In this document: piece after piece, positions 2,381-38,048 of the stretch
Numbering within the stretch: the stretch's first letter is position 1
How the letters are laid out: every line of letters begins with the position of its first letter
NCBI GenBank assembly: GCA_020746875.1
Contig: JAGTJL010000019.1
Span: 124,001 to 188,000 of the forward strand
DNA length: 64,000 nt
Direction of reading: 5' to 3'
DNA from: Rhexocercosporidium sp. MPI-PUGE-AT-0058
Taxonomy: Eukaryota > Ascomycota > Leotiomycetes > Helotiales
The notes under the pieces: generated by a model
Databases searched by the model: none
Seen by the model: only the letters and a program-made list of their open reading frames with translations
What the model was told of the DNA's origin: nothing
Program-made: the position numbers and the translations under genes

Positions 2381-2435
2381 TACAGTAGCTTATAAAATCG
2401 GCTTCGCGTCGTCTCGCTTAGACATACCTTCCGTG

Positions 2436-2586
2436 CGGAAGAGGGTTTTAAGTAAGTCCTCGTCCAGCCTGGTATTTTCTTTTGTTACTTATAAAAATTT
2501 GTAACGAGAATCGGAGTGTTTAACGTTATTCTATAGTCAATAATACCTTGCTACTAACCACGGTGGCCACTTGGAACTCCTTTCCG
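2436..2586. mobile_element. MITE family B, diverged copy
   Basis: Inverted ends CGGAAGAGGGTTTTAAGTAA (left) and, on the other strand, CGGAAAGGAGTTCCAAGTGG (right) enclose about 150 bp. The subterminal box CTCGTCCAGCC resembles that of the copy at 1457-1613. The interior is different. This is a degraded relative, probably inserted into E1 just inside its left TIR. Confidence 0.5.
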
Positions 2587-2860
2587 TACAAAAAAAGAAG
2601 AGACAAAAGAATATTAAGCGAAGCTGCTAGAATATTCCAGACTCACTAATCTAGCATATTTATAAATCATATAAAAACATTAGCATTAACTGAGTAGTTG
2701 CTGTATATAAAAATCAGCTCCCCCTAGTCCCTCTTTATCAAAGTTAAGAAAATAAAAAGAATATAAATTAGTTGTCTATTTAACATCTCAGTTCTCAAAC
2801 GCCAAAAGCAGCAGCTGGCCCCTCTTCCCGAACAGAAGCCAAGGGCAATAGTGTCAATCG

Positions 2861-5800
2861 TCAGTAGTAGCCGCTCTCAAATAGCAGCTTGACGACATTG
2901 ACGTGCCCCTTCTTAAAGGCTTAATGTAATAGCGTCCGTCCATTTTTATCAGCCGCTGCGGGGTCGGCGCCTTTCTCGAGCAGCAACTTAACGACATTGA
3001 CGTGCCCCATCTATAAGGCCTAATATAATAGCGTCTGTTTATCTTTATTAGCCGCCACATTTACATCGGCGCCTTTCTCGAGCAGCAACTTAACGACATC
3101 GACGTGCCCTTTCTTAAAGGCCTAGTGTAATAGCGTCCGTTCATATTTATTAGCCGCCACGTTCACATCGGCGCCTTTCTCGAACAACAGCTTGATAATG
3201 CCCTCGTGCCCGCGTTTAGCAGCCTATGACAGGGGCGTTTAATTATTTATATTTACACTATTTGGCGCAACTTGTCCTGATTTAATTAAAAAGGAAAAGA
3301 GTATTTCATTACTATACTTTATAATATATAAGAGAATACCCCTTTTTCATAAGAAAGTAAAGTCGCGTCTAAAGGTGGCTCATTTCTTTTTACTTTAATA
3401 ATATTATTTATATAAGTTATAAAGCGGAGATATTAAAGGCTGAGTTTCCGCTTAGATATTAAGAAGTACACAAATAGCTTTATTACCCTTAGTAGCTAGC
3501 GCCGCGAAAAATGGCGGTTTATAACGCTTATTTTTAACGTCGAAGTAAGACTCCTTTTAAGAATATATTTAAATTAAGTCGGCCAAGTTCTTTTTTATAA
3601 AGATATAAAGGAGGCTAACTAATTTAGTATATCGCCGAATATTAAACCCTTTAAGAGTATTATTAAGGAATATCTATTGTTTAAAAAGGAAATCGACAAG
3701 AAAATTTCTTTACTTTATTGCATTTTATTAAGCGTTATTAGCGTGGTAAAGGACATTAAGAATTGAATATTTAAGAAACGAAAACTTTAAGGTAATAGTC
3801 TCCCGCAACTGTTTAGCCTTAAATGCCTACGGTAAAGGGTTAAAGATATGGACGTCTTAGCTAATTGAAGCGTTTAGCTAAGCCAAGTAGTAATTCCTCA
3901 AAATTTCGTGATTATAGCTTACGAAGTTGCCTAAAGCCTTAAACTATTAGCCTTCGTATTTACTTAGTAAAAAGTCTTGAATAGACTTATGAATAAATTA
4001 GACTTCGGAGGCCTTATTCCAAGTGACTTCGGCTAAGCTCTTAAAAGAACTTCTTATGAAAGTCTTTATTTAGCTTAATTCCATATCTTTTTAATTTCAA
4101 TAACTTAAACTCTCTTTTTCGACACTAAGTTAGACGGCGAAGTAGAGTTCTAGCGGCTTAAGAGAACGAGTCGCGAAGAGGATTTATTTCAGACAAATTT
4201 ATAGCTTTTCAAGGTTTTCTTCATCTCGTATAAGAATTATCTCAAACAATTCTATTAGACCCGGCGGAATTTCCTTAAGGCGTTCGCGGATTTTAGTGGA
4301 AGCGGAGCCATTGCGGTATTCGATGTTGAAAATATCAATAACCAAAACGACCTAAAGGAAAATGCGAGAGGATTTTTTAAGGATTTTGAACCGAAATAGC
4401 TCGGCTTGCTTCGACTTGCCCAGCCTAAGTTTCGACTTAATATACTGTTCGATATCTTCCGTATGCCCGATTTCGTATTCTAAAGTGACTTCGATGTCGT
4501 TTTAGATGACAATAGTTAGATAATACCGACTAGAAAAGTAAATTTGTAACTGAACTTATGCCTCTCTCGCGTAATCGCATAGCCCCTTAAAGAAGTAAAT
4601 TATACCCACAGCCTCGTTTTTATTATATTTATTCAGCGTATTAATAAATATTATTAACAACCGACTCTTAAGCTTCTAAATAATATATATTAACGTTTAC
4701 TTTAATGCTTTCTTATATCATTTATTCCGTTAAATAACCCTCGCGCTATCGGCCGTTAACCACTTTAAACTATTTCTTAACTCCACCGCCTTCTTAAAAA
4801 GCTAATAGAAAAGAGAGCGGTATAAACCCGTTATCGACTTCTCCTCGACCGTGCCTCGTGCGAGGAAGAAGAATGATAACGTGATTTTCGAGGAATTGCC
4901 CTTTGCGTTAAGCTTAGCCTCTTCGAAGAGGAGTTTCATTAGAGTTGACTTCCTGGTGCCGGGATTACCTTTAATTTAAAGGAAGCCGCCGTAATCTGGC
5001 TGTTTTACTACGTTGTGCTAGGATATATATTTAAGTTTAATAAGAAATTAGCGGTAAGTTATTCTTTAAGCGGCTATTAAATTTATTAAGCGCTCGTCGA
5101 TTTTTGTGAAATAAAGCTAGTCTATTAATGACTGGCTTATTATAGCGTTAATATTTATAACTAGCTCTTTTCCGGTCTCTAGTAAATTGTTTAATTATTA
5201 GCCGCTAATTAATATTCCCTTATTATAAATAATTAACGGTTTTATACTTACTCGTTTTTAATTGTTTAATAGAATTAAAAGTATATAAGATAGGCGATAG
5301 TTGGTCGAGCTAATGTTTCCTTAAACGCTTGTCAAACTCGTCTTAAAGCCTCTAGAATGCTATCTCCGCCCTCTTACCATAAAGAAGTGGCATAAAAATG
5401 TCGAAAATACTTAGTAAGGAATAAGTCTTATCTTCTTCACGTATAGTCTGGCGATTTTTAGTTTATGATATTCGCTCGTTAACGTTAAACGTAAATAAAG
5501 TAGTTCTTTAAAGAGCCTGAGCCGTAATCCCCGTTATCTTATAAAGCTATCGCTTTAACGATTTCTTGTCACCGAATCGTTTGCTACTCAAGCAAAAGAA
5601 TTCAATCGATAATAAAATAATAAGTTCTTGAAGTATTCAACCACAAGTAAACCACCGACTTCTCTTAAAGGCCGATTGCCACGATTGTAAAGACGAGTCG
5701 ACTTAATTATAATTATTTGTCGAAACATTTAATAAATAAACGTAACATTTAGCCGCATTTTAATACTAGCGAAACATAAAGTTAATAGCCTCTATGAGCT

Positions 5801-6053
5801 TAATATTATTCACTTTGTCGATATAATAAATATTTATTTAAAAGTATTATAAGCTATTGCGTCTGGCTTATTCTCTATAGAACTAGATCTTCTTATAGCC
5901 AGCCTTAAGCTTGCCGGAATAATTCCTTAGCTCTTAAAGGGTGACCTCCTCTTCTCCTTATATATATAAGAGTATAATATATATTAGAATTTCGTGGATA
6001 AGGTCGTCGATAAGGCTAAACTCGCCGCCGTCGTTATTCTTTAAAAGACATAT
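2861..6053 (-). pseudogene. HET-NACHT-ankyrin NLR-type pseudogene, RIP-degraded
   Basis: Minus-strand relic of about 1,060 codons. Seen: a degenerate start at 6053 (ATA TGT CTT TTA in place of the usual ATG CGT for a MRLL start) and a HET (heterokaryon-incompatibility) domain over the first ~240 codons. HET landmarks are the Ile-Asp-Lys box at 5819, the SRWFT box near 5660 and the SLLSIFDIFMPLLYG box near 5400. A linker with the F..ID motif follows near 5110, then a NACHT P-loop at 4969-4943 (GNPGTRKST, with AGG where Gly is expected), then ARGTVEEKS and GLYRSL near 4850. At least four ankyrin repeats (LLLEKGADVN type) span 3290-2861. The HET part is in one frame; NACHT and ankyrins share another, so one indel or short intron lies between ~5330 and ~5200. 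Stops are TGG- or CAG-derived. Known role of the family: fungal STAND/NLR receptors that trigger heterokaryon incompatibility or cell death. This copy is dead. Confidence 0.88.
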
Positions 6054-7003
6054 TAAAGAGATTTAATCCGTAGAATCTTAAGAAGGAAGGTTCTTAGTAA
6101 AAGGTAATCGTAGAGTCGGCATACGTGCGAATTTGTTTATTAAGTTAAAATGAAAGTTAAGTTAAAGCTGGAGCTAGAGCTCTTGTCGACTTAATAGAAC
6201 GATAGCCTCGCGACAATGCGTCGATAGGCATCGCTTCTAACGCGTAAATCAGTTAATTACTGGCCAGCTACGTATCAGATCTTGATTTTATAGCCGTACT
6301 TGGCCTATTTATTATCTCGTGCGCGATTGAGCTATGGCTTTGATTTTATTATTAATTGCTTATCTTATTACTTGGGCTAGACGTATAAGCTATATAAAGA
6401 GAGGCAATGCTATCACGTATAATCGTTTCTAAATTAGGTAGTAATCGACAACTATCCGGCATATTCTTGCGATTAAGGTGGGTAAAATCTTATATAAGCT
6501 CTTAAAAAGATTTAAGTGTTAAATCTATTAATCCTGCATATATAACGCCTATTTTTATTAAATTTAAGGGGTAGTCGAAATTGTGATAGGGTAGTATAGG
6601 CAGCAATATTTAAAATATACGTGACTGTGGAAATAGGGCACATTCTTTAAAGAGTTTCCTCGATGAGTATATGGCGTCGCGCTACGCGCTTCACACCCTT
6701 TTAATATTTATAAACAATTCCTATAGTAGATAAATCATATAATTAATAATAATAGAACAAGTAATACGGGATATAAGAGGTTAAAAAAGTATTGCCTCCC
6801 GGTCAGCTTCTTAAATTCTAAGTATAGAGGACGCAGTGGCTGGGTGTTATAAACAACTTTTAACGAGGTACCTAAGTACTTACGTATTGCAGAGTACACG
6901 GGATAATAGAGGAGTTGCGGCGCCAGCACTAAAAATAGATGAGGGGGTTTATATTTACAAATTTTTAGGCGAAAGAGGACGAAGCCGATTTTATAAGCGA
7001 CTA

Positions 7004-7475
7004 TAGCGGCGGTAAATAGTACCTTCGTACGTCATTTTGCCTCTTACTTAGACGTATTCTCGTTTCTTACTTAAGTATATGTCATTCTTTTAATTAAAGG
7101 TCTGCCATTCTCTTAATTAAGGGTCTACTATTCTCTTAATTAGGGGTTTATTATTCTATTAGTTAAGTGTCTGCCATTTTCTTAATTAAATACTTATTAT
7201 TCTCTTTATCTTTACTTATTTATAGATTCTGGGGAAGCGAAGATATAGTAGCAGCGGTAAGGAATACCTTCGTACGTTATTCTGCTTCTTAATTAAATGT
7301 ATTCTTATTTCTTACTTAAGTATATATTATTTTCTTAATTAAGCGTATGCCATTTTCTTAATTAAAAGTCTGCCACTTTCTTAATTAGGGGTCCGCTATT
7401 CTATTAATTAAGTATTAGCCATTTTTAATTAAAGGTTTGCTATTTTCTTAATTAAATATCTGCCATTCTCTTTAT
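7004..7475. repeat. satellite array, right arm
   Basis: The remainder of the unit interrupted at 2096 (TAGCGGCGGTAAATAG onward), then a second unit opening GATTCTGGGGAAGCGAAGAT near 7217, both with the CTTAATTAA minisatellite. The array fades into RIPed sequence near 7475. Confidence 0.8.
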
Positions 7476-10400
7476 TAAGCGCATTTTTTACGTCAATTAA
7501 AACAGTTTTTAATAACCTCTCGAAGTAAGTGGCTTAACATCACATTGTCTTTATACTGTCAATTCTACTTTTAAAGAAAAAGTAAGTCTAACGGTCTTTC
7601 GGTCTTAACTTAGCGCTTAAACTACAAACAATAGCCGACATCGATCGTTACACTTAGTATATTAATAATATTTAATTAACTCAAATTAAAGCGTTAATAC
7701 TTCGCAGTCTCGATAGCGCCTTCTTTAAGAAAGTATATATTCATAAGTCGTCGTAAAAAGTTTATTTATAAGTTTTAAGAAACCTTATAGCCGCTATTAC
7801 TTTTAAATTATATTTATTAATAAATATATCGCCAGAACTTTTATTATATAGGCCTATCGAGAACTAATACTTTCTCGGATCTTATCGACAGTCTCGTATA
7901 ATGGACAGGCTTTCCTTTAATAAAGCCGAATAAGAGCGCACTGACTTTAAAGTGTTCCGCTTTAATTCGAGGATTTACTTTATAATAGAAAAAGGATTGT
8001 TTATTAATATAAAGAAGTGCCGGTTTTAGTAAGTATACACTTTTAAAAACTACTTAAGCGGCTTATAAAGAGTCCTTCTCGAGGGCTGAAATCACTTTTT
8101 TTTAAAAGCCTATTATAAAGTAAAGATTATCAGACCGACACAACTATAGGCATAACTATTAATAATAAGAAAAAGGTTATATTCTCCCTCGAATCTCCGT
8201 TATATATTAATTAATAATAACGAGGAGCGGACAAGCCTTTTATTAATAATAATATAAAAAAATAATAAATAGATAATCTAAAGACCGCCGCCTATAGCAT
8301 AAGTTCCTCGGACTATATTAATGAAATCGACTTCTTTTAATAAACTCTTAATAATACTAATCATTTAAATATAAACACGGATGAAAGAGCCCTTTAAGTA
8401 TTACCACCGGGTCCTTCGACATCCGTATTATTAAGTATAACTTCTTTGAAAATAAACCAATTTAAGTAAGAGAAGTTTTTACGTACTCAAAAATTAAAGT
8501 CCTTTCTTTTACTAATCCCTTAATAACATCACGACGTAGTCATTAAGACGCGATTATTAAGCTTTAAACCCCAAGCTCTCCTCACAACTGCCGGCTCCAT
8601 AACTACCGTAGCTAATATATAATTAAATAAAATAAAAACATTTATTATTATATTTAAGTTATAACGTCTCTCGATATATAATAAAAAGGCCACATTTACG
8701 GCTACTTAAGCCTAAAAGAAAATATAACTAACGGCTGTCGCTCTTCCTCGTGCTATTAAACGTAATACTGTCACGCTATTAATAACCTTAGTAAATACGG
8801 CCAATTTAAGATTAAAAGTAAATAATTCAGTTTTTATAACTCGGCCTCTTATACTAGTTAGCCGTTTAACATCGCCAACCTCGTAATTAATAATATTAAA
8901 GAATCCGTAAATATAAAAATAATATTCACTTCTGACGTCACAAAACAGGAATCTCTTAAAATAAGTATCGGCAGCCCTAATAACAGAACCTTCTAGTAAA
9001 CCTCTAGTTTCAAATACTCCGACAATATAATTATAGTCTTCGCCGCACTAAATAAGGCGTTTATTACAGAAATCCGGCACTTTTTACTTTAGAACTAGGT
9101 CCATATACCTTAACAAAAGAAAGAACGACTAATTATTAGCCAATTAGTCGTATACTTACGAAGTCGTAACCCTTATATTTAAACATAAGTATAATACGAC
9201 TACGTCTAAAAGATTTTAATTAATTAAGAGAATCTTATTTCCTTTATATAATTAATTTAATAAAAGGTTTATTCTTAAGGTGAATACCTTAATATCGTAA
9301 AATATAATAGAATTCTATACGCAATATATAAAATTTATTAAATAAGGAAAGCATTCCAACGGGCTAAAGTTTGAATTCTTAAACGTTATTATATAACCTA
9401 GACTTAACTTATTAATAATTATCCCTTTAAATAATCGAGCCAACTTTTAAATATTAAAACAATTTGCCTTTAGGTCCTTTATAAACAGCCTGTCGAAGAA
9501 TCCAAGACTCGAGGAGTTCAGAATATTAATTACTAATATTAATAATATTATTTTTAATAAAATAAAATGCCGTAATCCTTAGTCGATGTTATCGACGATC
9601 CAAATACGACTAATAGCGTTTAAAATCATTTAATCCACATAAATGCCTCCTAGCCTTTTTACGTCGCGAGAGTAATCTTGGCCACCTTATGACTTGCTCT
9701 CGTTTAAGGAAATTGTAAGTCGTAATCTTACCCCGGCTATCTTATAAGTAGCCAGCGGCCACGGTGCGAGTGCGCGAGACTTATAATAGTTCGAAGCCGG
9801 AAACTCACATTTTATACTGCCCCGAATTACTATTCGCATCTAAGTAGACATATTCAGGCGTATAAGTAAATTATATTTAATTAAGGCACTTAGTCTTAAA
9901 GTAAAGAATATTAATTTCTTCGCTTAGTTTACAAAAGAAGTAGGCTTTAATAACCTAATAAGGCCCAAAGAATTGACTTTCATATTTCGAGACGCGTTAC
10001 TTATACTTAAAAACAATTGTATTACCAAAGGCAATAAAGAATACTTTAATTATATAAAGCGAAATATAAGGCCGGTATATAAGCATGTGACGGCACGCAT
10101 GCCCGATTTGACGGAGTTTATTATTTTAATTATAATACCCGCGTAAGACAGCGAAATAGGCGTAAAATAGTAAAGGATTTCATTATATATTAAAATCGAA
10201 TTATTATTATATTATACTTATTCTTTTTTAAATTGTTTTTACGTAATTTATTATATATCTCAAGCTAATTAAATAAAATAACCTATTATTAAATACTTTG
10301 CTACTGTAGTTTACCGCTTGCGCGAAGGGCGTGAGCTTATTAATAAAGCTATTAAATGCGTATATATAAATATTAGTGTATTATTACGCCGCTTTGCTCG

Positions 10401-13108
10401 AGCAGCTTATATATCGGCTAACGTATTATTTAAACTTAATTAACGGCGTTTAAAAAGTAAATAAGTCTAATGTTAAGTATGCTTAAAGTCTAATCTATAG
10501 TAAGTTATTAATAGGCACCGAGTATACTTAAGCTTTATAAAAGTATATCCTTAAAAATAAAGAATTAAAATAAATTAAGGCTAAAATCCTTTTTAATAAA
10601 CTTAACATTAAACTCACGTATATTTTAATATATAACGTATATATATTTAAAATATATTCCTAAATAAACATACCTAATTAAGTCTATTAAATAAGCTTAT
10701 CGATTACTAGTCTTAGATTTGTATATATATATTAAGTAATCCTATTATAAAATAAGCTTATTCCGAAACGCCGGCGTCGTTAATTATAAAGAGGTAATAC
10801 TTAAAACTATATATACTTAAAATCTTAATAAAATAACCGGCATTTACTTAGTTTAGGTTTACTATAGTTAATATTATTATAATTCCGTATCCTTAATATA
10901 AAGGCGTATACTTAAATTTAAGCATATTAACATTAAAATCTAAGAATCGGAGACGTCTATTAAGGTTAAACATATGCTCTATTAAAAGGAAGGTCGTCTT
11001 AATTACAGGCCACTTAACCTCTTTATAAATGTCATCTTTAATTCCAGCTCGACAAAGGACAAATTATAAGAATAAAGTAATAGGTTCTCTTAAGTTTAAC
11101 TCAAAATAAAAAGTCGACATATACTCCCGTTACTCTTCGGCATTAACTATCTCTAATTAGCCAGCTACCTTTTACGAATATATGAGCTCGATGACTTCCA
11201 TGTTACTAGCTACGCTAATTTATATTATTTAAATTCGATATATTCTACGGTTATAAAATGACATTTAATATACTAAAACATTTCAAAGAAATGGCCAAGA
11301 CCGGCTCTGGATCGTAAGGACTACGAATCGTTAATATAAAGCAGTCACGTTATAATATAAATAATAACTATTAAACTTTACATAATTTATATTTAATCTT
11401 CCGCTCGACTTCTATTTAAAAAGAAAATATTTTATAAAAGACAATATTCGAGCCGTTTAAGGCAGGATAAAGGCGCCGTAAGAAAGAGTAAAAGTGTAAT
11501 AATAATCTTAAAACTTAGTAATATATAGCGAAGGAAATGTCACGAGCATTAAATAAATAAAAGACTTAATTTAATAAAAGCCTAGTAAATCGACTTTATA
11601 ACTTATCTTTATTCAATTTAAGTATTAAACTCTTAAGTATATAAGTAAGACTTGAACGTATAATTACCTTTAACTAACTAATTATTATAAAATAAGCCAT
11701 TCCTAAACTATAGGCTTCTTATTTAAATTAATTAGCTTTTATACTATTTAATTTAATTACTGAAATTGGGCCCGACACAAAGGTTTCCCTTTTATAACAC
11801 TCTTATACTCACCATTTCAAACAAAAGCTAAAGTAGTCAATTAATGCTAATTAAACAATGCCCTAAGCCTATAGTAAATGCGAAATCTATTGACGTAAAT
11901 AATAGAAAAGGCGGCGCTAATCTATAGTCGAAGACTAAGCTTAAGCTCACTAATGTCGGAGATGTGAAAGCACGCGGAATTAATATTATTACAATATTTA
12001 TATAAGTAGAGCTCCTTTAATAAAAAGTCTAATTTAACTAAAAGACCGACTTAATAAGTTTACTTAGGAAAAGCGTAAAAATTAATACTTTAAATACTAT
12101 TAAACATAATATTATAACGGTTATTACGGGCTTAATTCGAATAGTATTATTATTAATAAAATACTCGGAATTAATAATAATAATAATTAACGAAGGGATA
12201 CTAAAAGTAAATCTCTAATTTACGGTTATTAATAATCCGACTGAAGACTTAAACGTAGCTAATATAGCCGGAGCCAAGCTGCCCAAAACGAGTATTAGCT
12301 AAGGTGTCAATCGAAATATATTAAACTTAAGCTGCTTTTAAGTCAATAGTATATAATAAACTCAAGATATATTAAAAAAGCTATAAATCGAGACATTAAT
12401 AATCCAGGACGTAACTAAGGCTATTTACCTTTATAAAAAAGGAATGCCTTATCGCTTACTTTAGTAAAATATAAAGGAGTATATATTTAATAAAGCATAA
12501 TTTCATAAACCCCTTATTAAGCCTTATCTTAAATATAACGCTGTCAAATATTACTATAATATAGTCCTAAATACCTAATGTCACATTATTATAATGGCCA
12601 TAGCCCTAGCTCTAATTATAAAAGTCTCCTTTTGCTTACTTAAAGTTAAATATACAACTTAAATCTATCTAAGGTATAAGAATAATAAACGTATTTACAG
12701 AGCTAAACTATATTAAGAAAAAGATGGCGTCTTTTACACAGGACGCTATATCACCTAAATCTCAATCCGTATATTCTTTCGTCGAGAATAAGCCGAAAAA
12801 AAATATAAAAATAAAAAATGAATTAAATTAAAATAAACCAATTTAAAATTAACCCGGCTTCTCCTAAAAGTCTTATAAAGTAATTAAGTATATTATAAAT
12901 AGTGGCAACGATTACTATAGTTATTTTAACTTAAAAAAAACTTACACTTCTAAAGAGATTAATAAGCAATATAAATAACTCTCTAGACTCACACATTTGA
13001 ATAAAAACAAATGACTAAATATAAAGTAAGCCTTTTAACGTATAACATCTTCTCTTTACTTAAATAACTTTAATATTAATTATAAAGCTCGCTACTACTT
13101 ATAATGTC
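7476..13108. other. RIP-degraded tract with unidentified relic frames
   Basis: Long TpA-rich stretch without any intact gene. A plus-strand relic frame is readable from about 8680 to 9600 (for example SLKISIGSPNNRTF and IIIVFAALNKAFITEI, with only TAA/TAG stops of the RIP type). Another lies around 11120-12900 (SMTSMLLATLIY and RNGQDRLWIVRTTN). They may belong to one large mobile-element protein continuing into the frame at 13109, but I do not recognise the family. Confidence 0.4.
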
Positions 13109-16865: not shown

Positions 16866-17492
16866 ATCACACTTCCTAAGTAGTATAATAACAAATAATT
16901 TAATGAAAAGAAATAAGAGATGTCGCCTAAAAATATAATATAAGTAAGGAAATTAAACGATATCGGGGAGAAATACTGTCTACTACTTCCAATCATATAA
17001 TATTCAAAGCGCCGGATGAGGGAGGGTTGAGGGCTGCGTCTGCGCACAATTATCTCATCATATGGCTGAACGAATAGCTGCCAGCTCTAAGTAGCAAATC
17101 TACACTCTATCTTGTTTCCTTTATGATTATCAAAAGAGAAAATTCTTTCCTTGAAGAGTGGCTTCTACAGTCGCTTGCAAAACCGGCTTCCCCTGCGCCC
17201 CTCACCAGAAATTCCGTAACCCAAAAATACGCAATTCATCGCCTTCCTCTGTTCAGGCCGTTGCAGAGAAAAAGCCACCGAATATAACTTTAACACGCAG
17301 AACTTGAGAATTCCGGTCAACAGCCTCCGCCTGGTTCTAGAATTTCATGCTAAGTCGGTACTCAAGGCTCTCTCAAGATTTCGTAGAGCCAGCTCCAGAT
17401 GCTCACTGACAGTCGTAACAACGCTAGAAGGATTGTAGATTTTCCTCAGAGTAGTATCCCATGTAGCTCAGACAAACATAGTCATATCGTAG

Positions 17493-17846
17493 TGTAACGG
17501 TCGTAGTATTTACTCGGTGCAAACACTAGAGGGTTGGGTTGATCTCTGATGATCGAGAAGTAGGTGTATCACGTACGCGTTGCAATCGAATTGCAAAGAC
17601 AGTTACCAAGTATGGGTGAGATACTTCATTTGAGTTGAGCACGAAGCTCCTATCTAATGGCAGACGTGCCAGTCTTATATAAAACTTTCGTACCGGTTGG
17701 ATCCCTGGATCTCCTAGATCCCCAGATCCATCACGTGATCCATTGATCCCGTGATTCCTGTCCTTTGTCTTGGCTTCTCTGTGTAGCGATGCTACCGAGC
17801 CTCAGGGCCAAGACACACGTGATACCCTGTTGGTATGTCCGTAACA
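17493..17846. mobile_element. solo LTR of an unrelated LTR retrotransposon
   Basis: 354 bp starting TGTAACGG and ending CCGTAACA, which are near inverted repeats, flanked by a perfect 5-bp target duplication CGTAG (17488-17492 and 17847-17851). It contains a promoter-like TATATAAA (about 17676) and a run of GATCC-type short repeats with a CACGTGATCC box (17700-17750). It is not RIPed and differs in sequence from the gypsy LTRs at 39.4 and 51.7 kb. Its end lies about 50 bp beyond the stop of the alanine-rich gene. Confidence 0.8.
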
Positions 17847-17895: not shown

Positions 17896-18465
17896 CTAAG
17901 CTTCAGAGAGCTGTGAGCTTTCCTTCGAGATTCGCTCGGCATGATATGCGACTGAACCCCACGGTAAAACAACTCCCCGTAGCAAGTAATATTGCCCGGC
18001 TTTGTTTTCTACCTCAACTTCGGGGAGGTTCGCAGACGCGGTGCTCGCACGGATAAATACCCGCCGAACCTCTGAATGCGCTGCTAGATCTGCGAATGTT
18101 ATCGGCTTGATCGATGACTCTTGAGTATCAACCTCGCCAATAATAGGTTTGTAGCAGCCCCAGGTCACAGCCCACGATGTGTGTTCACTGGCACCAACAA
18201 GGACCGCTCCAATAATCCATCCTGCTGGATTCCAAACATTGGCAGCGGTGACCCCTGCCGCAGCAATAGCAGCATTTTCAGCAGCGATAGCTACGGCAAG
18301 TGCAGCCTCAGCAGTGGCGAGGGCGCCGGCCGCAGAAGCAGCAGCACCAGCAGTAAGAGCAGCTTCGGAAGCGGCTGTAGCGACCGCAACTTGGACAGCG
18401 GCAGCTTTCGTGAGAGCGGTCATAGCAGCAAGTGCTCCGGCACCGGTGGCAACTACTAGAACCAT
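17896..18465 (-). CDS. alanine-rich small protein of unknown function, intact
   Basis: 189 codons, ATG at 18465 (context CATCATGG), stop TAG at 17896-17898. Residues 1-75 are Ala/Gly/Thr/Val-rich with few charges, resembling glycine-zipper or membrane-associating helices. A short hydrophobic segment follows (NPAGWIIGAVLVGA, residues ~82-95), then a Trp-containing TSWAVTWGCYKPIIGE block and a polar C-terminal part with LPEVEVENKAGQYYL and VVLPWGSVAYHAE. I recall similar uncharacterised fungal proteins with a W-x-C-W/Y-K-P block and a C-terminal LPW motif, but cannot name a family. It is the only long open frame here without RIP stops, and it is the cargo of E2. Frames on the opposite strand over it are shadows. 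Confidence 0.75.
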   Translation of the reverse strand: MVLVVATGAGALAAMTALTKAAAVQVAVATAASEAALTAGAAASAAGALATAEAALAVAIAAENAAIAAAGVTAANVWNPAGWIIGAVLVGASEHTSWAVTWGCYKPIIGEVDTQESSIKPITFADLAAHSEVRRVFIRASTASANLPEVEVENKAGQYYLLRGVVLPWGSVAYHAERISKESSQLSEA

Positions 18466-18626: not shown

Positions 18627-19032
18627 ACGTTACGCCACACACATGACCAGGCCTAAAAAGTAGTGGCTGAGTAAAATATAGCGAGGCTGTATTCATACAG
18701 TATATTGTACCCAGGCTAATGCCGTTAATAAGCACTAACTTAAAGCTAAAACATGTGGCATTTTAGAGAAAGTCTTTAGATATTATAAAGTATAGTACTA
18801 AATCTGTATCCCCGCGTTATCCATATAAGGTTAAGCTAGTATCTGGACTTATTATAAGCGAGAGTTGGAGTTTATAGCTCCTTTGACGGAGGGGAAGCCG
18901 GTTTTGCAAGCGACTGTACATTGGAGCTCGTAAAATGTTTTTGCTCCTACGTAGCATTCAGCCCAGCATAGGCTTATGATTAGGATTCTATTGAGAAGCC
19001 AAATCCGTCAAGCGACTGACTTGTCAACTGTA

Positions 19033-24360: not shown

Positions 24361-24361
24361 A

Positions 24362-25110: not shown

Positions 25111-25249
25111 AGCCGTTAATTCAAAATCAGCTTCCATTAAAACCCGATTCGACCTCGTTCGCTTAACACATTATTAATAAAAAAAAATACTTTTATAATA
25201 ATAGAGCCGGGGAAACCCTTCGAGGACATCCTCTCGAGACTTAGCTTTA

Positions 25250-27844: not shown

Positions 27845-27971
27845 CACACCGTGGATTCTATAAAGGGTGTGTTAAATAATATATAACTCATTCGCCCTTG
27901 AAATTCTTTACTTAAAACTCTTTATAATAAGAATTCGCCTTATTTAACACAATAATAAATTAAATGGTGTG
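27845..27971. mobile_element. possible 127-bp MITE
   Basis: Inverted ends: CACACC...TGTGTTAAATAA (27845-27879) against TTATTTAACACA...GGTGTG (27940-27971). The outer six and inner twelve bases match perfectly; the middle is diverged. No clear target duplication. Confidence 0.4.
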
Positions 27972-28364
27972 GTGCGAATAAGCCAGCTAAAATTAACTAG
28001 CTAAATCGTCTCATTTAAGGTAGTATTTATAATATTAAAATAATACTTTAAAATTCATATTTATAATCGTCTTTCTTTTTAAACGAGTTTTAAAATAATA
28101 ATTATATAGAATTTACTATTTTATTTTTAACTTTTTGCTTATTTATTTTTGGACTACTTCTACTATTAATACTTTACTTAGCCTATCTTAACACAATTCT
28201 TAGCCACTAAATCCGCCTACTGCCTTTAATTTACGAGTGAGAATGGCCTTAGGCATTATTAGTTTAGCGATTAATTAATATTGTAGTTGGGCATATAACA
28301 CGCTTTACTTCGCCTAACTTTATAATAAGCAGCGGGCTCACTTATATACAGAATATCTCGTTCC

Positions 28365-28480
28365 CCTCTGCTAAAGGCGCCTAAAGTGCGTTGTCGAGGG
28401 GTCCACCTTAGGTGTTAACGTAGGCGCCTATCTCAAGTAGTAACCGCACGACCTCCTTATCCCCCTTAATATAATTAATA
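28365..28480 (-). pseudogene. ankyrin-repeat fragment
   Basis: On the minus strand the sequence reads KGDKEVVRLLLEIGAYVNT, a stop where Gln is expected, then GGPLDNAL. This is the ankyrin variant often seen at the C-terminus of fungal NACHT-ankyrin proteins. It is one repeat plus part of the next and no associated receptor domain is legible. Confidence 0.6.
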
Positions 28481-28559
28481 TACTTTTAAATACTTTTAAA
28501 ATACTTTAAAATATTTAGCTTAGATTTCTTAATTAATAAAAATAAAAATGCTTAACTAT

Positions 28560-28800
28560 TAAAAGGAAGTAAATAATAAGCCTTCTTTAAGATTAATAAA
28601 GTCGACGCCGATTTAAAAGATTGCTCCGGTTAAACGCCGCTATAGTATACTATTAAAAACGGGTATAAGGCCGTAATTAAGCTGCTGCTTAAGACTAATA
28701 AGGTCGAGGCTAACGCAAAAGATAACTTTAATTAGACGCCGCTATAGTAGGCTATTAAAAGCGAGCGCGAGGCTGTGGTTTATAAGGAGGGCTATTTAAA
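28560..28800 (+). pseudogene. ankyrin-repeat fragment, opposite strand
   Basis: Two to three ankyrin repeats in the plus frame: NKVDADLKD, TPL (28638 area), IKNGYKAVIKLLLKTNKVEA, then NAKDNFN-stop-TPL with TAG/TAG where Trp-Trp is usual. The subtype (LLLKT.KV..N.KD....TPL) differs from the minus-strand fragment 100 bp away, so the two come from different genes or arms. Confidence 0.6.
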
Positions 28801-31100
28801 TAAGAGGAAGGGGACAATTAGCTTATTAAGTAATTTAAACTTAATTACTTTATTTAATTATAATGTGATTTCGAAATAAAACTTAATAATATTAATAGCG
28901 TGAATTTTTATTAAGTGTTACGATTAAGCTCTTTATCCTTCGCAATTTTAACTTGCCGTTAAGACACTTAAAAGAGCGACAATTAATAAATAAATATAAA
29001 TCGCGTAGCTAAAGCGTATACTTATTATAAACATAATATTAAATAAAGTCAGACTGAAATTTATTACTTATCGACATTTACAATAAAGGAATAAAAGGCC
29101 GCGGTAACGGTCGACATTTCAGTAATACTTCTTTTAACTTTGATGCTTTTACGGCGGCGGTTTACGAGATTGCCTTTAATAGGCTAATAAGTTAAGAATA
29201 AAAGACGTAATAGACTTTAAAGTACTTATATTAACGTAGACTTAATATATTAAAATACTTTAATAAGTATAGTAATAAAAGAAATCCTATAGTTATAATA
29301 ATTAAATGCTTTATTCTATTATATTAATAAAGTGACTTTTAAATGTTAAAAAACTAACTATTAATATATAATATAAGCTTAGTGTTGCAGTTGTCGGTGG
29401 CGTAAAGGGCCGAAGGCCTATAATATTGAGGTAGGACTTAATATAAGGCTAAAGGCCTTGTATAATTAAGCGGCTGTAGGGGTTAATAAGAACGAGTAAT
29501 ATTATAAGTAGCTTGAATATTTAATTAGCATATACTTAAATTTATTTATATTTAAAGTAATATTATAAAATGGGGTTCTTAAGCAATGTTTTTTTATAGG
29601 GATGTTATACGTTCCGTTAATAACTTATATAAAGGAAGTCCTGTAGCTTATAAATAAATTAAGGCTAAGCTAGTATCAAGTTATAATATAAAGTACTTCG
29701 AAACTCTTTACTTTTGCAGTTCTTTGTTTTATAGCGTAATATAGTAGGAAATCAGAAGCGAAGCGGCAAGGCAACTCCACTTATGCCAGGTATTATATAA
29801 TAGCTTATTACGCCAATTAATAAGTTTATTATTTTGTTATAAACCGAAGCTAAGTATTAAGGGATATTTATTAAAGAAAATTCTTCCTTAAAGATTTACT
29901 TATTAATTAGCTTACTTATATATTATATGCCTTTGCAAATATAAACCCGATCATAAGACAAGTATTAGATTTTCTCTAGTCCAATAGCCTTATTCATTAA
30001 TATTACTTTAGTTATCTCTCCGATTAGCAGGCTAATACTTCCATTTAATTTGACGACCAGACCGCACCTTAAACAGAGTCTTAACTCTTTAAGTATTTAA
30101 AATAATTATATTTTATTAAAAAAAACCGGAACCTAAAGGTCCTTCTTTTTATTAGTGGCGTAATATACTCTTAAAACTTTGCCATTTTTACTTCGTCGGA
30201 ATAAGGACGGACATTATTTATATTCTTTACGTTAAATCTCGTTAAAAACCTTAAATTAAATAACTTAAATATTAATTAAAAGTATCCTATTAATAAAGCT
30301 AAGGCCGTTAACCTTATCTTACTTTTAAAAGAGACTAAAATACAATTAAATTAATATAACAACTCTTTATATATAAAGTATTACTTTAAACTTATATTCG
30401 CAGCGCCTATAAGCCCTTTAAACTATTAAAAACTAGACTTAATAGCTATAAATTAATATCTCGACTTTTAAAACTTAATAGCATATGATTACGCGAGCAA
30501 CTAATTAATTCCTAATATTATTAGCTATTAAATAAATTTATTCTCTGCCGAAGACATATTAACTCCGTTTAATATTAAGTTTAATATTAATTACTACACT
30601 TTTTATAGCGTAACGTTTAATAAAATTGTCTTAGAAATACTTATTTACGGCCGGTTATTTATAAAGACTAAAAGCCTTAAACAATCTTTTAAGGCCGTAG
30701 AGACTAGTATTTAAGAAGTAAAAGTATATAATTATAAGTCTTTATTAATAGTTAACTTTATTAAGATTTATAATGAAAAGCTTAGAGTTAGTTATAGTTA
30801 GAATTTAATTAAATAAGAATTAATTAACTATAATATTGTGCAAGTTAGTCGTCAAAAAATAAAGTAAATTAAGAGTATAAATTTAAAAGGTGCAATGTAA
30901 TAAGAAAATAATGCAAATAAAAAAAGGAGGGGATAGTCTAATCGAGAATGTGGTTTTAGAGCTAGTTAATTGTATTTTATAAGCAGCGAATAACTTGGAT
31001 TTCCCGGACTCATTATACGACAACGTTTGTAACCAACCTCGCTTACAGTTCTCATTGGCGACTGCTTCGGAGCCGCGATCGCCTTTTAAGACAGTTTATA
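28801..31100. other. RIP tract with a relic frame near 30480-30900
   Basis: Mostly TpA-rich. A plus-strand relic is readable at 30480-30900 (FSAEDILTPF, EILIYGRLFIKTKSL, SFKAVETSI, LLIVNFIKIYNEKL); family unknown. A short higher-GC patch at 30940-31090 has no legible frame. Confidence 0.4.
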
Positions 31101-31102
31101 TA

Positions 31103-31385
31103 ATATAAGCATTAATATCTTTAACATCTTTAATACTTTTATTATCTTTATTATTTTTAATATCTTTAATACCTTTAATATTTTTAACATTTTTAACATT
31201 TTCATAAATGCCTTTTAATATAATAACAAGCTTTAGACTTATCTCGCTACTACTTTCATAAATATTAAAATTCTTAATATTTTTAATATTAATCTTAAAA
31301 TCTTTAATATTTTCGCAAATACCTTATAATATAATAGCAAGTCCTAGACTTATCTTACTACCACTTTTATACTTATTAAAATCTT
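31103..31385. repeat. 9-bp (ATCTTTAAT-like) tandem tract within a ~111-bp duplication
   Basis: Runs of ATCTTTAAT, ATTTTTAAC and similar 9-mers at 31103-31200 and 31258-31312. They are followed in both cases by AATRCCTTWTAATATAATARC and a TAGACTTATCTYRCTACYAC box (31207 and about 31319), giving two copies of a longer unit. The 9-bp period could be a former low-complexity coding tract. Confidence 0.5.
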
Positions 31386-31810
31386 TAACTTTAATATTAT
31401 ATTTAAGAATCTAAGGAGTAAAGTCTTATAGCTCTAGAGGTTCCATAATATATAAACATTCCTTTACTTAATTAGTTACTCGATCCATTATATATATAAC
31501 TATAACCACGAACATTCCGGTTATTATGACAACAATAGTAATTATTGTCACGTAAAGCCGAATCCTATAATAAAAAATAACTATATAAGTTCATAAAGTT
31601 ATTAATAAAATATTACTTTTTTTTATTATTCTTCTTTAAAAAGATTACGTAAAAAAGGGCTATAGTTAATTATAATATTACCCCTCGTCTTTAAAAACTA
31701 TTAATAATATTAAGTTATATATAATTAAGAGTAGGCATTAAATAAGAGCTTTTAATTAATTTCTTTGTTTAAAAAACAACTTATTCTGACAGAAATTTAG
31801 ATTTAAAGAC

Positions 31811-32040
31811 TTATTATATTTAAGATAGCCTATAAGATAACATCCTTTAAAAATAATAACGATTTTTATTATTATAACTTTTCCTTTTTATTCAAACTAT
31901 ACCTCTCCCTTTTTTTAATAAATTATACTTCTTAAATATATAATATCTTTAGTATTTATTAAATAAGTATTTCTTACGTTTACCTTTTGGCACTTGCTTT
32001 ACTACCCTCTTATTGTGTGCTTAATGTTTTCCTCTTTATA
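31811..32040 (+). mobile_element. 5'-truncated gypsy LTR copy
   Basis: Matches the LTRs at 39357-39636 and 51653-51932 from CTTATTATATTTAAGATAGC to the GCACTTGCTTTACTACCCTC box and the LTR end (32040). The first ~50 bp are missing. The sequence just upstream (AATTAATTTCTTT, 31730-31805) resembles 55250-55325, so the LTR lies in or next to another repeat. Confidence 0.7.
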
Positions 32041-33110
32041 ATAATAATTTCTTTTATAAGGAAAAGTTCAATAATTATAATTATATTATTTAATATTAAA
32101 CTTATATTATAATATCGCTCCTTTATAACCTAGCTAATCTCATTACCTATTAAATAAGATTCATATCCCTCGTCCTCTCTCTTAACTTATTTACACTAAA
32201 TGTGATAATATTTCAAAGTCTTATTCGTAAAGCTAACTCTTATATAAATCTCTTGTTTATAATCGAAATAATATTTAATCCAAGCTCGTAAAGCTTATCC
32301 TTCTTATCCCTTAACTTTTATACGTAGCCATTTAATAAGGTCTCCAATTTTAATAATTATATATTAATTAATAATATAAGAAATAAGATTTATAAACGTA
32401 TAACTTATACGTCTTTAAAAGTGCTAAAATTAGCGAGGCTCTTTAAATTCGTCTTTAGTAAAGCGAGCGCTTTAATTACTTAAAAAAGAGTCGCTTTATT
32501 AGTTACGAAATCGACTTGCATTATAATACTTTAAACATCAGCCTTAAAGTTATTTAATTTAACGGCAATAAAATAAGAAGAAGATTTTATAATTATAAAA
32601 GTAATTAAAACAAGTCAGAGGTGTTTAGTTTCCTATTAAATAATAAATAATAGGCTCGGGTTTTTATTATAACTTAAGATTTTAACGTCTACAATAAAGG
32701 ATAGTATCGGAGGGTCGTTAATAATACTTTCTATAAGTATAGTTTAATTAATTAATTTCAGTAGCGATATAGGCGAGGTAATAAGAAAGTCTAAGGTAAT
32801 GAGATATATTTAAATTTATAAAAAAAGAGACGAAATAATTCGTATTATTATATTAAAAAATTATAATTCCGGCCGTCTTTTATTTAAAATAGCGCTAGCC
32901 ACTGTGGCCTTATTGTCTAAGGCTTTCACGGGTATTATATATCGCCGAGCCCGTGCGGAGCTGCTCAAGCCCCTTGCTCGTTTCAGCCCGAGGTATTAAG
33001 CAATGTGGCGATTATAAATTAATCTACACGCCACAGCAGCCACAAGGCTGACTACGACTTCTCGTGTAGTTGAGAGATGTGAGAGCTTGAAGACGATCTT
33101 CTTAAAAATG
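32041..33110. other. RIP tract rising to higher GC before element E3
   Basis: No gene recognised. From about 32880 the sequence is less mutated. The short antisense frame crossing 32996-33199 overlaps the E3 terminal repeat and shows no motif. Confidence 0.45.
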
Positions 33111-33560
33111 TACAGTCGCTTACAAAATCGGCTCCCCCCTCCGCACTCGCTAGAAGATTCGGAGCCCCACCTTTTTGACAGGGCTGAGCAAAATATCACG
33201 TGATCATTAAGTACTTTAGTAACTTATTAATCAACTTAATCGAACTGATCTAAGGCACTTCTTATACAGTTTCCCTCTGTGGGTATTGCACAAGAGGTCC
33301 ATAATCCCTAAAATCCAACCCACGATAGTACTTTAAATATCTGTTTTATCACGTGTGAATGTCTAACTGAGTTATACATTGCTTAGTAATGCCCCGCTAT
33401 TGGCGGCATGAGTGCGAGCCTCATCATGACCTTCCGACATCGACCACTTAATGCCTAATGCGCATGAAGTTTCCTCCTTATTCACTAGTAATCACGCATT
33501 AACTTCTGTGCTCTTAATTCTTGCTATCTCAAGTTCTGCCTAGCTAATCCTGATCTGAAA

Positions 33561-36500
33561 ATGCGTCTTTTGCACCTTTAAAGCGGCAACCTCAGCCTTA
33601 TTAAGGACTACACCGAACATGTTCCGCCATACGCGATACTATCTCATACTTAGGGAAAAGATACAGAGGAGGTCACGTTCGACGATTTTAAAGCGAGCAC
33701 TTATATAAATAAAATTAAATATAAAAAGATTAAGTTTTACGGAGAATAAGCAATAAGAGATAAGTTCTAATACTTTTAAGTAAATACATATTATATTAAC
33801 AAATCTAATCTTCTAGAGCTTTCGGAAGCTATTAATTCTATGTTTCGCTAGTATTAAGATACGGCCAAATACTACGTTTACCTCTCGGATATTTTTAAAT
33901 AAAGTAATGCAGATAAACCGTTCTCTCGGTCAATATGGAAATCAGAATTTCGGCACAGTAAATAGTTCACTCGAGCCTGGACGCTCTAAAAGCTTATTAC
34001 ACCACAGTCAGTTAAATTCTTCTCTCGGGAGGACGAACGATTAAGCGATAAGAGATCGCTCGAATCATCACTTCACGAGATCACAGGAATTCCAGTGAAA
34101 GTATTTCAAGGGAAGCCTCTCGTCGAATTAACTATTAAAGAACGGATACTATGGGCAGCGAAACGCATAGCTAAGCGCAAAGAAAACGAGACTTATTCTC
34201 TATTAGGAATTTTCGGCCTATACATGCCGTTAATTTATAGCGAGGGGAGAGAAAATGCCTTCTTTCGGCTTAAGAGGGAGATTGGCGAACATTCAAAAGG
34301 TAAATTTAGCAAATTCCATAATAAGGACTCGACTTAATAAGAGCTATAATTATAATTAGCTTATATATTCGGCTTTTGTATAAGAACTAATATACATGGC
34401 AATATACACTGGATATTGCCTCAGGCTATTAATAATCTATTCACAAGGCGTTTTAATTTACTTTCCCGAATATAGAGAGCTCTTTAAAGTAAATCTAATT
34501 CTATAGCTTAGATACAGAGGAGATTCGTAATTACAGGACTAGGCGGATAAGGGAAAAGCGAGATATGCTTGCAGATTGCGAGCTTAATGAGACAGAAGTA
34601 CGTTCTTCCGATAGCTATTAAAGATTTATAAGTATTTAGCTTATACTATAAGTTCTAAGGAATATTCTAGGTCGACGTCGATAAACCTTCCACCGCCGAG
34701 CGTGATTTTATCGCCGTTACAAAATTACTTAGGCATTCTATTGAAACTGTCCTCGAAGCACTTCAAGTTCTTACGACTACCGAACGAAGCTGGCTCCTCA
34801 TCCTCGATAATGCTAACGACCCTGACTTCGACTACCAAGTCTACTTTCCACCTAGGTACCGCGGCGCCGTTCTGATGACATCTCGCGTTACCGAATGTAG
34901 GCGATACAGTCAAGACGCCTTCGAAGCGTTAGAGGGTCTAGAAGAGCAGGACTCGAAAGAACTTTTACTTAAAGCAGCCGGACTATCTCCGGAATCGTGG
35001 CCGTCTCAGGATTCCTAAGCTAAAGAAGTAGTCAGCCTCCTTAGATCGCACACGCTTGCCCTAATACAAGCTGGAGCATATGTTAGCTATAGCCACTGCC
35101 AGCTCGGCCAATACCCTGAGGTTTACTAACGGCAGCGACATCGGCTCTTGCAATTTCGACCCAAGCAGGCCCAATCGAGGTATCGCGATGTTTATGCTAC
35201 CTTCGAAGCCTCAGCAGATGTCTTAGAATAATCCTAAAATAAGTCTGCATGCGATATTCTTTACTTGCTGGAGATTCTGTCGATGCTTGGCTCTAGCGTT
35301 CTTCCTCTGCAGCTTTTCGAAGAGGCATAGAAAGGTTATAAAAAGATCTCGCAGATTAAAAATAAGGCTAAAGATATCGATGAATTTACTCGAGATCACA
35401 TCTCGCAGTTGCCAAGTTTTATCGTCCCAGAGGAAGACGAATGGGACCCTTTTCGTCTTACCGACGCCAGTTCTCTCCTCGCCTCACTTTTATTAGTCAC
35501 TCGACAAGATCTAAAAGGGGGCGTAGGATTGTCGATGCACCCGCTGACTCATGCTTAGGCTAAGGATTGACAGGATTCAAAGTATTAAGGGGTGGCATAG
35601 ATTGTAACTAGCTGTATTCTTAGAGTCTCTCGGTTAAGTACTCGCTTATGGCAAATACAAGAGAGACTTTGGCTTCCGCACATCTTATCATACCTAGATA
35701 TTAAATTCAAGAAAGTATTTAACTTGGCGTCGACAGCAGTTGTTACCCCGCTCTTTCTCTAGTGCGGCTGGGCACTATTAAACATGCGATAAGACTTTAG
35801 ACTTAGTTAATTATTACAAGATATATTCCTCGAGCTAAGATAGGAGGTTAACGAGCCATCGGAAGAGTTCTTGCCGCTCTATGACCTTCAAGCAAGAAGC
35901 CTAATGAATCTTGGGAGGAATGAAGCAGCCAGGGCGCTGCTCGAGCAGGTGATTAAGATCCGGGAGACCATGCAGCCCGAGACACACCCTGACACGCTCA
36001 AGACTATGAATAACCTCGCTCTTGTGCTCTCTAAGTAAGGTAAGTACGCCGACGCGGAGGCTATAAACCGCCAAACGCTCAAGATTTCAGAAGAGGTGCT
36101 CGGCAAGACGCACCTTAGCACGCTTACGACTATAAGTAACCTCGTTAAAGTACTCTTTAGGCAAGGCAAGTACGTCGACGCGGAGGCTATAAACCGCTAA
36201 ACGCTCGAGATTTCAGAAGAAGTGCTCGGTAAGACGCACTTTAATACGCTTATAATTATAAATAACCTCGCTCTTATATTTTTTAATTAAGGCAAGTACG
36301 CCGACGCGGAGGCCATAAATCGCTAAACGCTCGAGATTTCGGAAGAAGTGCTCGGCAAGACGTACTTTAACACGCTTATAATTATAAGTAACCTCGCTCT
36401 TATGCTTTTTAAATAAAGTAAGTACGCCGACGCAGAGGCTATGAACCGCTAAACGCTCGAGATCCGAGAAGAGATACTCGGCAAGACGCACTTTAACACG

Positions 36501-37565
36501 CTTATAACCATAAATAACCTCGCTGAAATGCTCGATAAGCAAGGTAAGTACGCCGACGCGGAGGCCATAAACCGCTAAACGCTCGAGATCCGAGAAGAGA
36601 CGCTCGGCAAGACAAACCTTAACACGCTTATAATTATAAGTAACCTCGCTTTTATGCTTTTTAAATAAGATAAGTACGCCGACGCGGAAGCTATAAACCG
36701 CCAAACGCTCGAGATTTCAAAAGAAGTGCTCGGTAAGACGCACTTTAATACGCTTATAATTATAAATAACCTTACTCTTATACTCTTTAAGTAAGGTAAA
36801 TACGCCGACGCGGAGGCTATAAACCGCTAAACGCTCGAGATTTAAGAAGAGGTACTCGGCAAGACGTATCTTAACACGCTTATAATTATAAATAACCTCG
36901 CTAAAGTATTTAATAGCTAAAGTAAGTACGTCGACGCGGAGGCTATAAACCGCTAAACGCTCGAGATTCGAGAAGAGGTACTCGATAGAACGCACCTTAA
37001 CACGCTTATAATTATAAATAACCTCGCTCTTATACTTTTTAAATAAAACAAGTACGCCGACGTAAAGGCTATAAACCGTTAAACGCTCGAGATTTAAGAA
37101 AAGGTACTTAATAAAACGTACTTTAATACGCTTATAATTATAAATAACTTCGCTCTTATACTTTTTAGCTAAGGCAAATACGCCGACGCAAAGGCTATAA
37201 ACCGCTAAACGCTCGAGATTTAAGAAAAGGTGCTTAATAAAACGCACTTTAATACGTTTATAACTATAAATAACCTCGCTAAAATGCTCTTTAAGTAAGG
37301 TAAATACGCCGACGCGAAGGCTATAAACCGCTAAACGCTCGAGATCCGAGAAGAGGTGCTCGGCAAGACATACCTTAACACGCTTACGAGTATTTACTAT
37401 CTTGCCTATCTACTTCAGAATAAACACGAGTATGAAAAAGCATTAATACTTTACAAAAGGGCTTGCAGTGGCTTTAAGTCATTATTAGGCTCTGAATATT
37501 CAATCACAAGAGCCTGTGTAAACCATTATTCTGCTATGCTTAATAGTTTTAACGCGGTAAAATAA
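33561..37565 (+). pseudogene. HET-NB-ARC-TPR NLR-type pseudogene, full length
   Basis: One unbroken frame of 1,335 codons including the terminal stop (37563-37565), ATG at 33561, no indel or intron, interrupted only by TAA/TAG/TGA of RIP type. HET domain, codons 1-245: MRLL start, VPPYAILSHT followed by a stop for Trp, EAINSMFR near 33830, NETYSLLGIFGLYMP near 34190. NB-ARC: P-loop GLGG-stop-GKS at 34536-34559, Walker B WLLILDNAND at about 34791-34820, sensor-like GAVLMTSR near 34865. From 35934, about twelve 42-residue kinesin-light-chain-type TPRs (126-bp units, GKYADAEAINR...LNTL...NNLA) run to 37430, then a short tail. Known family role: STAND receptors in fungal non-self recognition and cell death, with HET as effector, NB-ARC as switch and TPR as sensor. 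It is the cargo of E3 and non-functional. Confidence 0.92.
35934..37430 (+). repeat. 126-bp tandem TPR-coding array
   Basis: About twelve units with high identity, each containing CTATAAACCGCTAAACGCTC or close variants. In most units the codon after AAC CGC is TAA (stop); at 36070 and 36700 it is still CAA. The long open frames on the minus strand across 36213-37247 are shadows of this repetition. Confidence 0.9.
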
Positions 37566-38048
37566 ATGTAGCGGTACTTTATAGCGCTGCTCGAGCAGGT
37601 AGTCAAAATCAATAGATTGAGATTGAAATTCCCCGAGCCGTATAGTATCGGAGAACGCACTTTCTTACTTTTCAAAGTCACTATAATTAATTTATATATC
37701 AAGTATTATTAGAAAAACTCTTTTTCTTTCGTCTAAAGTAGTACAACTAGTATTAAAACGTGATATAACACCTCTGTCGTAGAAGACTTTCTTAAGGCTT
37801 TGCCTACGTGTTCGAATGATTCTTCTCTAATATATTTTTATAACTTTAATAAAGAGGGGCTTAGGGAATATGATTTCTATATAACTTAATAAGAATATAA
37901 TATTCTAAAAGGTTCAAGTTTATTCTGTCGACGTTATAATGTGCTTCGCGCCTGCCGGTCACATAATACTTCGCTTAGCCCCGACCTTTAGGTGGGGCTG
38001 AATCTTTTGGTGAGTGCGGAGGGGAAGCCGATTTTGTTAGCGACTGTA

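Follow-up and report, generated by a model that had tools for sequence, protein, structure and literature searches.

A stretch of 64,000 nucleotides from the fungus Rhexocercosporidium sp. MPI-PUGE-AT-0058 (contig JAGTJL010000019.1, positions 124,001 to 188,000, here called the window and written C11:124001-188000) contains three regions, E1, E2 and E3, that end in the same terminal inverted repeat (TIR) and differ in what lies between. Do these regions move as units together with the genes they enclose? An earlier note on this DNA described them as a non-autonomous, TA-targeting family that transports allorecognition and cell-death genes. Our analysis makes it highly probable that they belong to a non-autonomous Tc1/mariner-like family with a TIR core of 25-30 bp, whose members have captured host genes, mostly of the HET and NOD-like receptor (NLR) type. 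The window and the genome (62,724,422 bp in 60 contigs, one of 5.14 Mb) were searched with a 20-bp TIR motif, allowing up to three mismatches. The motif matched seven times in the window against 0 matches expected by chance, and six of the seven form three inward-facing pairs with TA at each outer border (2381/7005, 17166/18918 and 33111/38048), as the note had described. The ends, together with the one insertion site in the window for which empty counterparts were recovered, are as follows.

E1 left TIR: 2381..2405, plus strand, TA at 2381-2382.
E1 right TIR: 6981..7005, minus strand, TA at 7004-7005.
E2 left TIR: 17166..17190, plus strand, motif match.
E2 right TIR: 18894..18918, minus strand, motif match.
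E3 left TIR: 33111..33135, plus strand, motif match.
E3 right TIR: 38024..38048, minus strand, motif match.
E3 insertion site: 33021..38138, no strand; its 90-bp flanks are joined at C8:481008-481190 and at C16:531103-531285, with one TA.

The three elements measure 4625 bp (E1), 1753 bp (E2) and 4938 bp (E3). Both ends of E2 match the 20-mer perfectly, those of E1 have two mismatches each, and those of E3 have 0 and 1. Genome-wide, the motif gave 113 matches (49 forward, 64 reverse) compared with 12 for a reversed-pattern control, and all figures on pairing, orientation and single TIRs given here rest on 100 listed matches of the 113. Neighbouring TIRs no more than 10 kb apart (n=32) were inward-facing in 21 cases, outward-facing in 4 and in the same direction in 7. 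When strands were shuffled the mean number of inward cases was 7.9 and the maximum 17, and the observed 21 was reached in 0 of 10000 shuffles. These 21 inward pairs, the three of the window and 18 further ones, bound units of 0.9-6.5 kb on many contigs. At the right end of one of them, L059, there are TIRs at both 4219 and 4815; the outer was taken, although the inner resembles the right end of L054. Locus L006 was counted with this pair and not among the single TIRs. Alignment of 45 ends (42 from pairs and 3 single) gave an information content of 0.05 bit at position -1 and 1.85 bits at position +1, the first base of TA, with a decay after about position 30. Conservation therefore stops at TA, and the continued homology across the borders for which the earlier note had proposed a check was not seen at these ends. 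The core reads TA-CAGTCGCTTRCAAAAYCGGCTTC and is often adjoined by related subterminal sequence of about 80-115 bp. Terminal inverted repeats and TA duplication are both marks of Tc1/mariner elements; the family ends have the repeats, and TA stands at both ends in 17 of the 21 pairs and singly in three empty sites. The starts of the family TIRs may resemble those of the mimp elements of Fusarium.

Several observations on the surroundings of the ends were made in the same search. The seventh TIR copy in the window, at 2257, has no partner and no TA, and is abutted by a repeat (2098-2257, within 2098-2276) that recurs in sequence flanking L066 (93%) and L067 (89%). E1 is flanked on either side, at 240-2098 and 7003-7480, by arrays of a 23-bp unit that form part of longer repeats. 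A cluster of 13 TIRs, out of the 100 listed, occupies C11:78-162 kb, a region that includes window positions 1-38048 and consists partly of AT-rich DNA resembling the product of repeat-induced point mutation (RIP). A second, inner TIR-like sequence, TACAGTAAACWTCGAAAYCGGCTTC, has 13 matches in the genome versus 0 for its control. It is paired in L063 (1835, plus; 6048, minus) and L065 (1662, plus; 3667, minus), and occurs also in L060 (6021, minus) and L067 (1670, plus), oriented as the outer ends of its host elements. These copies may be internal binding sites or, alternatively, older ends that have become nested.

Such pairs might also arise if the TIRs were separate short insertions, either miniature inverted-repeat transposable elements (MITEs) or solo ends, lying by chance on both sides of common HET and NLR genes, the enclosed gene never having moved. 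At up to three mismatches, 58 of the 100 listed TIRs stand without a partner, a point against the earlier note; the best match of a left end is its own right end in just 4 of the 21 pairs; and HET domains are numerous in this genome (best 150 of 526 candidates), all of which is in line with separate insertions. A looser mismatch limit supplies a partner for some of the unpaired TIRs (for example C1:2220395..2226760 and C23:2114411..2117101, in a search with L070), and 11 of 12 inspected unpaired loci have TA at the main match. The excess of inward orientation argues against separate insertions, as does the similarity of left and right subterminal sequences (positions 26-125), which was 449.5 within pairs, the highest value among 10000 random pairings being 429. 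The empty sites contradict them. For 16 of the 21 sites (all but L051, L065, L067, L069 and L070) the two flanks were joined and searched against the same genome, and single-TA empty sites were found for three, E3, L053 and L056, in which the flanks are joined without the gene. The E3 flanks align without gaps to C8 (214 bp, 94%) and to C16 (240 bp, 86%). Those of L053 are matched on C12 (97% over 159 bp) and C1 (83%) and those of L056 on C10 (83%) and C23 (77%), and every one of these junctions has a single TA. The continuity of reading frames across joined sites was weak and was not used as evidence. Because of the empty sites and the within-pair similarity of ends, chance pairs of MITEs were rejected, and we regard separate insertion as very improbable.

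A further argument against separate insertions is provided by one cargo unit present at two loci. L060 (C11) and L063 (C12) share both their ends and the gene enclosed, and are homologous from TIR to TIR (3771 of 4790 columns identical), while their flanks are unrelated, with 46/129 and 59/129 positions identical. Of 828 substitutions from L063 to L060, 79% are C>T or G>A and 56% of CpA sites are hit; given these proportions, L060 looks RIP-mutated relative to L063. Partial matches of L063 at 90-91% occur at C8:1981533-1982714, C45:66821-67336 and C23:1811961-1812344, with no listed TIR nearby. In L070, ends of about 85 bp match 24 other places, and the interior has no second near-full copy, only two short matches in the HET region (26 of 26 candidates scored).

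With the boundaries in hand, the contents of the window elements were read as follows.

E1 cargo, NPHP3_N (NACHT-like) remnant: 4526..5008, minus strand, stops rendered as X; RIP-degraded.
E1 cargo, ankyrin-repeat remnant: 2879..3307, minus strand, stops rendered as X.
E2 cargo, open frame for an alanine-rich protein: 17896..18465, minus strand, stop included, start codon inferred.
E3 cargo, HET-domain piece: 33990..34334, plus strand, 51% identity (58/114) to the HET protein of L068.
E3 cargo, weak NB-ARC-like piece: 34671..35015, plus strand, E 1e-4 to the NB-ARC protein of L063.
E3 cargo, array of tetratricopeptide repeats (TPRs) with a period of 126 bp and with stops: 35856..37466, plus strand, on repeat and Pfam evidence.

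The earlier note had seen a complete gene in each pair, and this was not confirmed for E1 and E3. E1 has 100-135 stops per frame in all frames, with a longest stop-free stretch of 89 aa, and the sense frame of E3 has 74 stops. RIP indices (TpA/ApT, then a second index) were 1.32/0.68 for E1, 1.32/0.75 for E3 and 1.08/1.14 for E2; E1 and E3 look RIP-degraded and E2 not clearly so. The RIP measurements covered the 21 pairs and parts of the window, and L055, L056, L059, L063 and L070 are counted as free of RIP. The HET-NACHT-ankyrin gene ascribed to E1 is represented by its NPHP3_N and ankyrin remnants, and a HET domain was not found at E<=0.01 in a Pfam scan of the minus strand translated with X in place of each stop. 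The HET-NB-ARC-TPR gene ascribed to E3 is broken; its TPRs were recovered, together with the HET piece by similarity and the weak NB-ARC-like piece, neither of which gave a Pfam match, and a PDB sequence search with the NB-ARC-like piece returned nothing useful. The one open frame of E2 spans 225 aa between stops; counted from its first ATG, the protein would have about 189 aa, and it has no Pfam match. The predicted folds of the E2 and L058 proteins had mean predicted local distance difference test (pLDDT) values of 53.6 and 46.2, too low to interpret. E2 also contains a dispersed repeat of about 200 bp (17491-17692) with at least 39 other matches in the genome at 68-88% identity (best 40 of 176 candidates).

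Behind the same ends, the 21 pairs hold varied cargo. A Pfam scan of 30 selected long open reading frames (ORFs), together with a genome-wide HET search and the window readings above, gave the following assignments.

HET cargo: L051 (with ankyrins), L055, L056, L059 and L065 (with stops).
HET cargo: L068 (with C2H2 fingers), L070 and E3 (with TPRs and the NB-ARC-like piece).
NPHP3_N/NACHT plus ankyrin cargo: L057, L064 and E1.
SIR2-NB-ARC-TPR cargo: L063, and its degraded copy L060.
Other cargo: LicD in L052; CPAF-like PDZ in L067.
Other cargo, below the cut-off: APH-like in L054; fungal-lectin-like in L066.
Cargo without a recognised domain: L053, L058, L069 and E2.

HET/NLR cargo is thus found in 13 of the 21 pairs (12 of 20 if L060 and L063 are counted once), in keeping with the earlier proposal of a family that transports such genes; the remaining 8 carry other cargo or nothing recognisable, and the cargo is not confined to allorecognition genes. 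L058 was left out of the NLR count, its candidacy as a STAND (signal transduction ATPases with numerous domains) N-terminal protein being based on a weak PigL_N match (E 0.023). In 15 of the 21 pairs there is a frame free of stops for 240 aa or more, and the longest such frame has 779 aa. HET/NLR cargo is over-represented among the elements: 13 of 21 has P ~2e-12 at an assumed background of 5% and ~9e-9 at an assumed 10%, and, of the best 150 of 526 HET candidates, 5 lie in the 71.8 kb of paired elements versus 0.17 expected by length alone, an expectation without correction for gene-poor DNA. The excess may be due to biased capture, an expanded HET pool, or selection for carriers of cell-death genes. 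Two further TPR-bearing loci lie outside the 21 pairs, at C45:1009545 and C60:832005.

The mover of these units was sought among transposases with DDE_3 and DDE_1 domains. In agreement with the earlier note, no transposase was recognised in the three window elements (no DDE_3 match, and none in the best 150 of 258 DDE_1 candidates), and none was recognised inside the 21 pairs. Among 78 DDE_3 matches genome-wide, two are on the inner side of a listed TIR and no more than 4 kb from it, at C2:55032 (L071) and C11:115296 (L062). The L062 remnant (C11:114.5-116.3 kb) is 25 kb from E2. Its frame opens some 190 bp inward of a family TIR with a putative helix-turn-helix part, named by eye, after which comes a DDE_3 match with 4 stops. 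The L062 end (C11:116266-116331, L062:3267-3332) shares 66 bp at 86% identity with E2 18853-18918 and was the sole match returned in a search with the E2 right end. A trans-acting Tc1/mariner transposase is suggested by this single degraded copy of the DDE_3 type, which shares the family end.

The same elements could instead be moved by a pogo/Fot1-type (DDE_1) transposase in place of a Tc1/IS630-type one. Both types target TA, and DDE_1 domains are abundant, with 10 TIR-DDE_1 combinations at up to 8 kb on the element side versus 4 on the outer side, one of the latter 231 bp away. No DDE_1 copy adjoins a TIR on the element side, however, the nearest being 1.6 kb away among the best 150 of 258 candidates, and the remnant that does start just inside a family TIR is of the DDE_3 type. 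The pogo transposase was set aside as a candidate for lack of such an adjoining copy, and we consider it unlikely to be the mover; of the Tc1/mariner-pogo-type mobilisation in trans first put forward, the Tc1/mariner part is the one that the remnant suggests. For the C2 transposase (L071) TIRs were not found, and a PDB sequence search with it gave nothing useful. Another transposase frame, at C1:4227390, is related to that of L071 (52%) and is preceded by TACAGTAGAATTCGAAATTAGTGTC (TACAGT...CGAAA), which agrees with the family TIR at 16/25 positions; the resemblance is weak because 79 of 2000 shuffles attain it. Adjoining the DDE_3 transposase frame of L071 is a 755-aa open frame (L071:5586-7850, plus strand) with no Pfam match, whose end is separated by 78 bp from a family TIR (7928, minus strand); a partner for this TIR was not found.

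Several results weigh against a captured-cargo Tc1/mariner-like family, beyond the unpaired TIRs and the few reciprocal best matches given above. The autonomous copy that the earlier note had proposed to look for, an intact transposase with family ends, was not found among the 78 DDE_3 matches, nor was a left end for the L062 remnant. The search of the same genome returned no spanning match for 12 of the 16 tested sites, and the match of L054 is 62 bp long, barely crosses the junction and has CA instead of TA. The empty sites that were recovered are related repeats elsewhere in this genome and not allelic sites of another strain. Parent copies were found neither for the E2 coding frame (best 40 of 176 candidates) nor for the L070 interior; L063, the third element searched in this respect, gave the partial matches listed above. 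Inward pairing, homology that ends at TA and single-TA empty sites within one genome nevertheless bear out the TA-targeting, non-autonomous family first proposed, and it is this reading that we retain.

The units might also be parts of Starships or other large elements, with the TIRs incidental. NLR genes are often found in Starships, two of which contain the ToxTA element discussed below (PMC12506042), and the cluster of TIRs on C11 would suit a larger element. The units themselves are small and, with their own TIRs and TA duplication, are spread over many contigs, whereas Starships are very large, have a tyrosine recombinase and follow other insertion rules, the carriage of NLR genes in fungi being the shared feature (PMC12506042). 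No domain of a DUF3435 tyrosine-recombinase captain was present in the 30 selected ORFs, the surroundings of the elements not having been searched for a captain gene. We judge this very improbable, and the least credible of the alternatives.

Closer likenesses are offered by smaller elements. ToxTA (formerly ToxhAT) of Bipolaris, Pyrenophora and Parastagonospora is a likely non-autonomous Tc1/mariner element that is likewise TIR-bounded with TA duplication, single-TA empty sites, host genes and RIP-eroded copies, its cargo including a TPR-bearing gene described as NLR-family; it differs as one 14-kb composite with 74-bp TIRs and several genes (PMC12506042, PMC6737239). Here there are 21 small pairs (20 distinct units) with mostly different cargo. 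In the transduplication of Pyrenophora tritici-repentis, too, the TIRs of a Tc1/mariner element enclose an additional ORF, in one family of 46 members of which 31 have both coding regions complete (PMC3538342), whereas the present units have many cargos in 1-2 copies each and no recognised transposase. Pack-TYPE (Pack-TIR) elements of plants and animals have TIR ends around non-transposon DNA and are mostly single-copy (PMC8903248, PMC8277862), and the present units are likewise complete TIR elements enclosing non-transposon gene sequence. The animal set is fragmentary and was selected for identifiable parents (PMC8277862), in contrast to the many long open genes and the HET/NLR richness seen here, where E2 and L070 gave no parent copy. 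The mimp/impala system of Fusarium shares short TIR elements beside genes of interest and a Tc1-type transposase, but mimps are MITEs in promoters (PMC3599309), miniature and gene-free, whereas this family has the gene inside the element, in units of kilobase scale with long frames. The best reading is that these elements are of the same general kind as ToxTA, the nearest named element, and the Pack-type elements, and that cargo breadth and HET/NLR bias within one TIR family are what set this family apart. Gene-carrying Tc1/mariner elements are known singly, as ToxTA and as the one P. tritici-repentis family (PMC12506042, PMC6737239, PMC3538342); a one-TIR family with many, mostly HET/NLR, cargos did not turn up in searches of the open-licence literature, subscription papers being outside the scope. 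In two papers on fungal NLRs, word searches found transposons mentioned just for RIP and repeat content (PMC12258605) and no mention of transposons (PMC4986451).

Under the favoured explanation, an element inserts at TA, duplicating it, with a host gene sitting in the place of the transposase between the TIRs. A DDE_3-type Tc1/mariner transposase from relatives such as the stop-ridden C11 copy would act in trans. The cargo may have been captured by template switching or gap repair inside the element and then moved as a unit, the genes presumably driven by their own promoters and duplicated copies probably silenced by RIP. RIP is expected to conflict with the build-up of NLR genes by duplication (PMC12258605), and 42 HET genes of a P. 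lycopersici genome are reported near repeats (PMC6034849). Elements of this kind would be one mechanism for such a placement of HET genes. A small carrier with defined ends would offer a testable route for HET/NLR genes to hop, spread and be lost, and the TIR a search key for cargo genes. More tentatively, and with real doubt on our part, the family may be specialised in cell-death NLR/HET cargo, kept as addiction or drive cassettes or for selectable self/non-self polymorphism. If so, the allorecognition repertoire would be partly assembled, reshuffled and RIP-pruned via DNA transposition.

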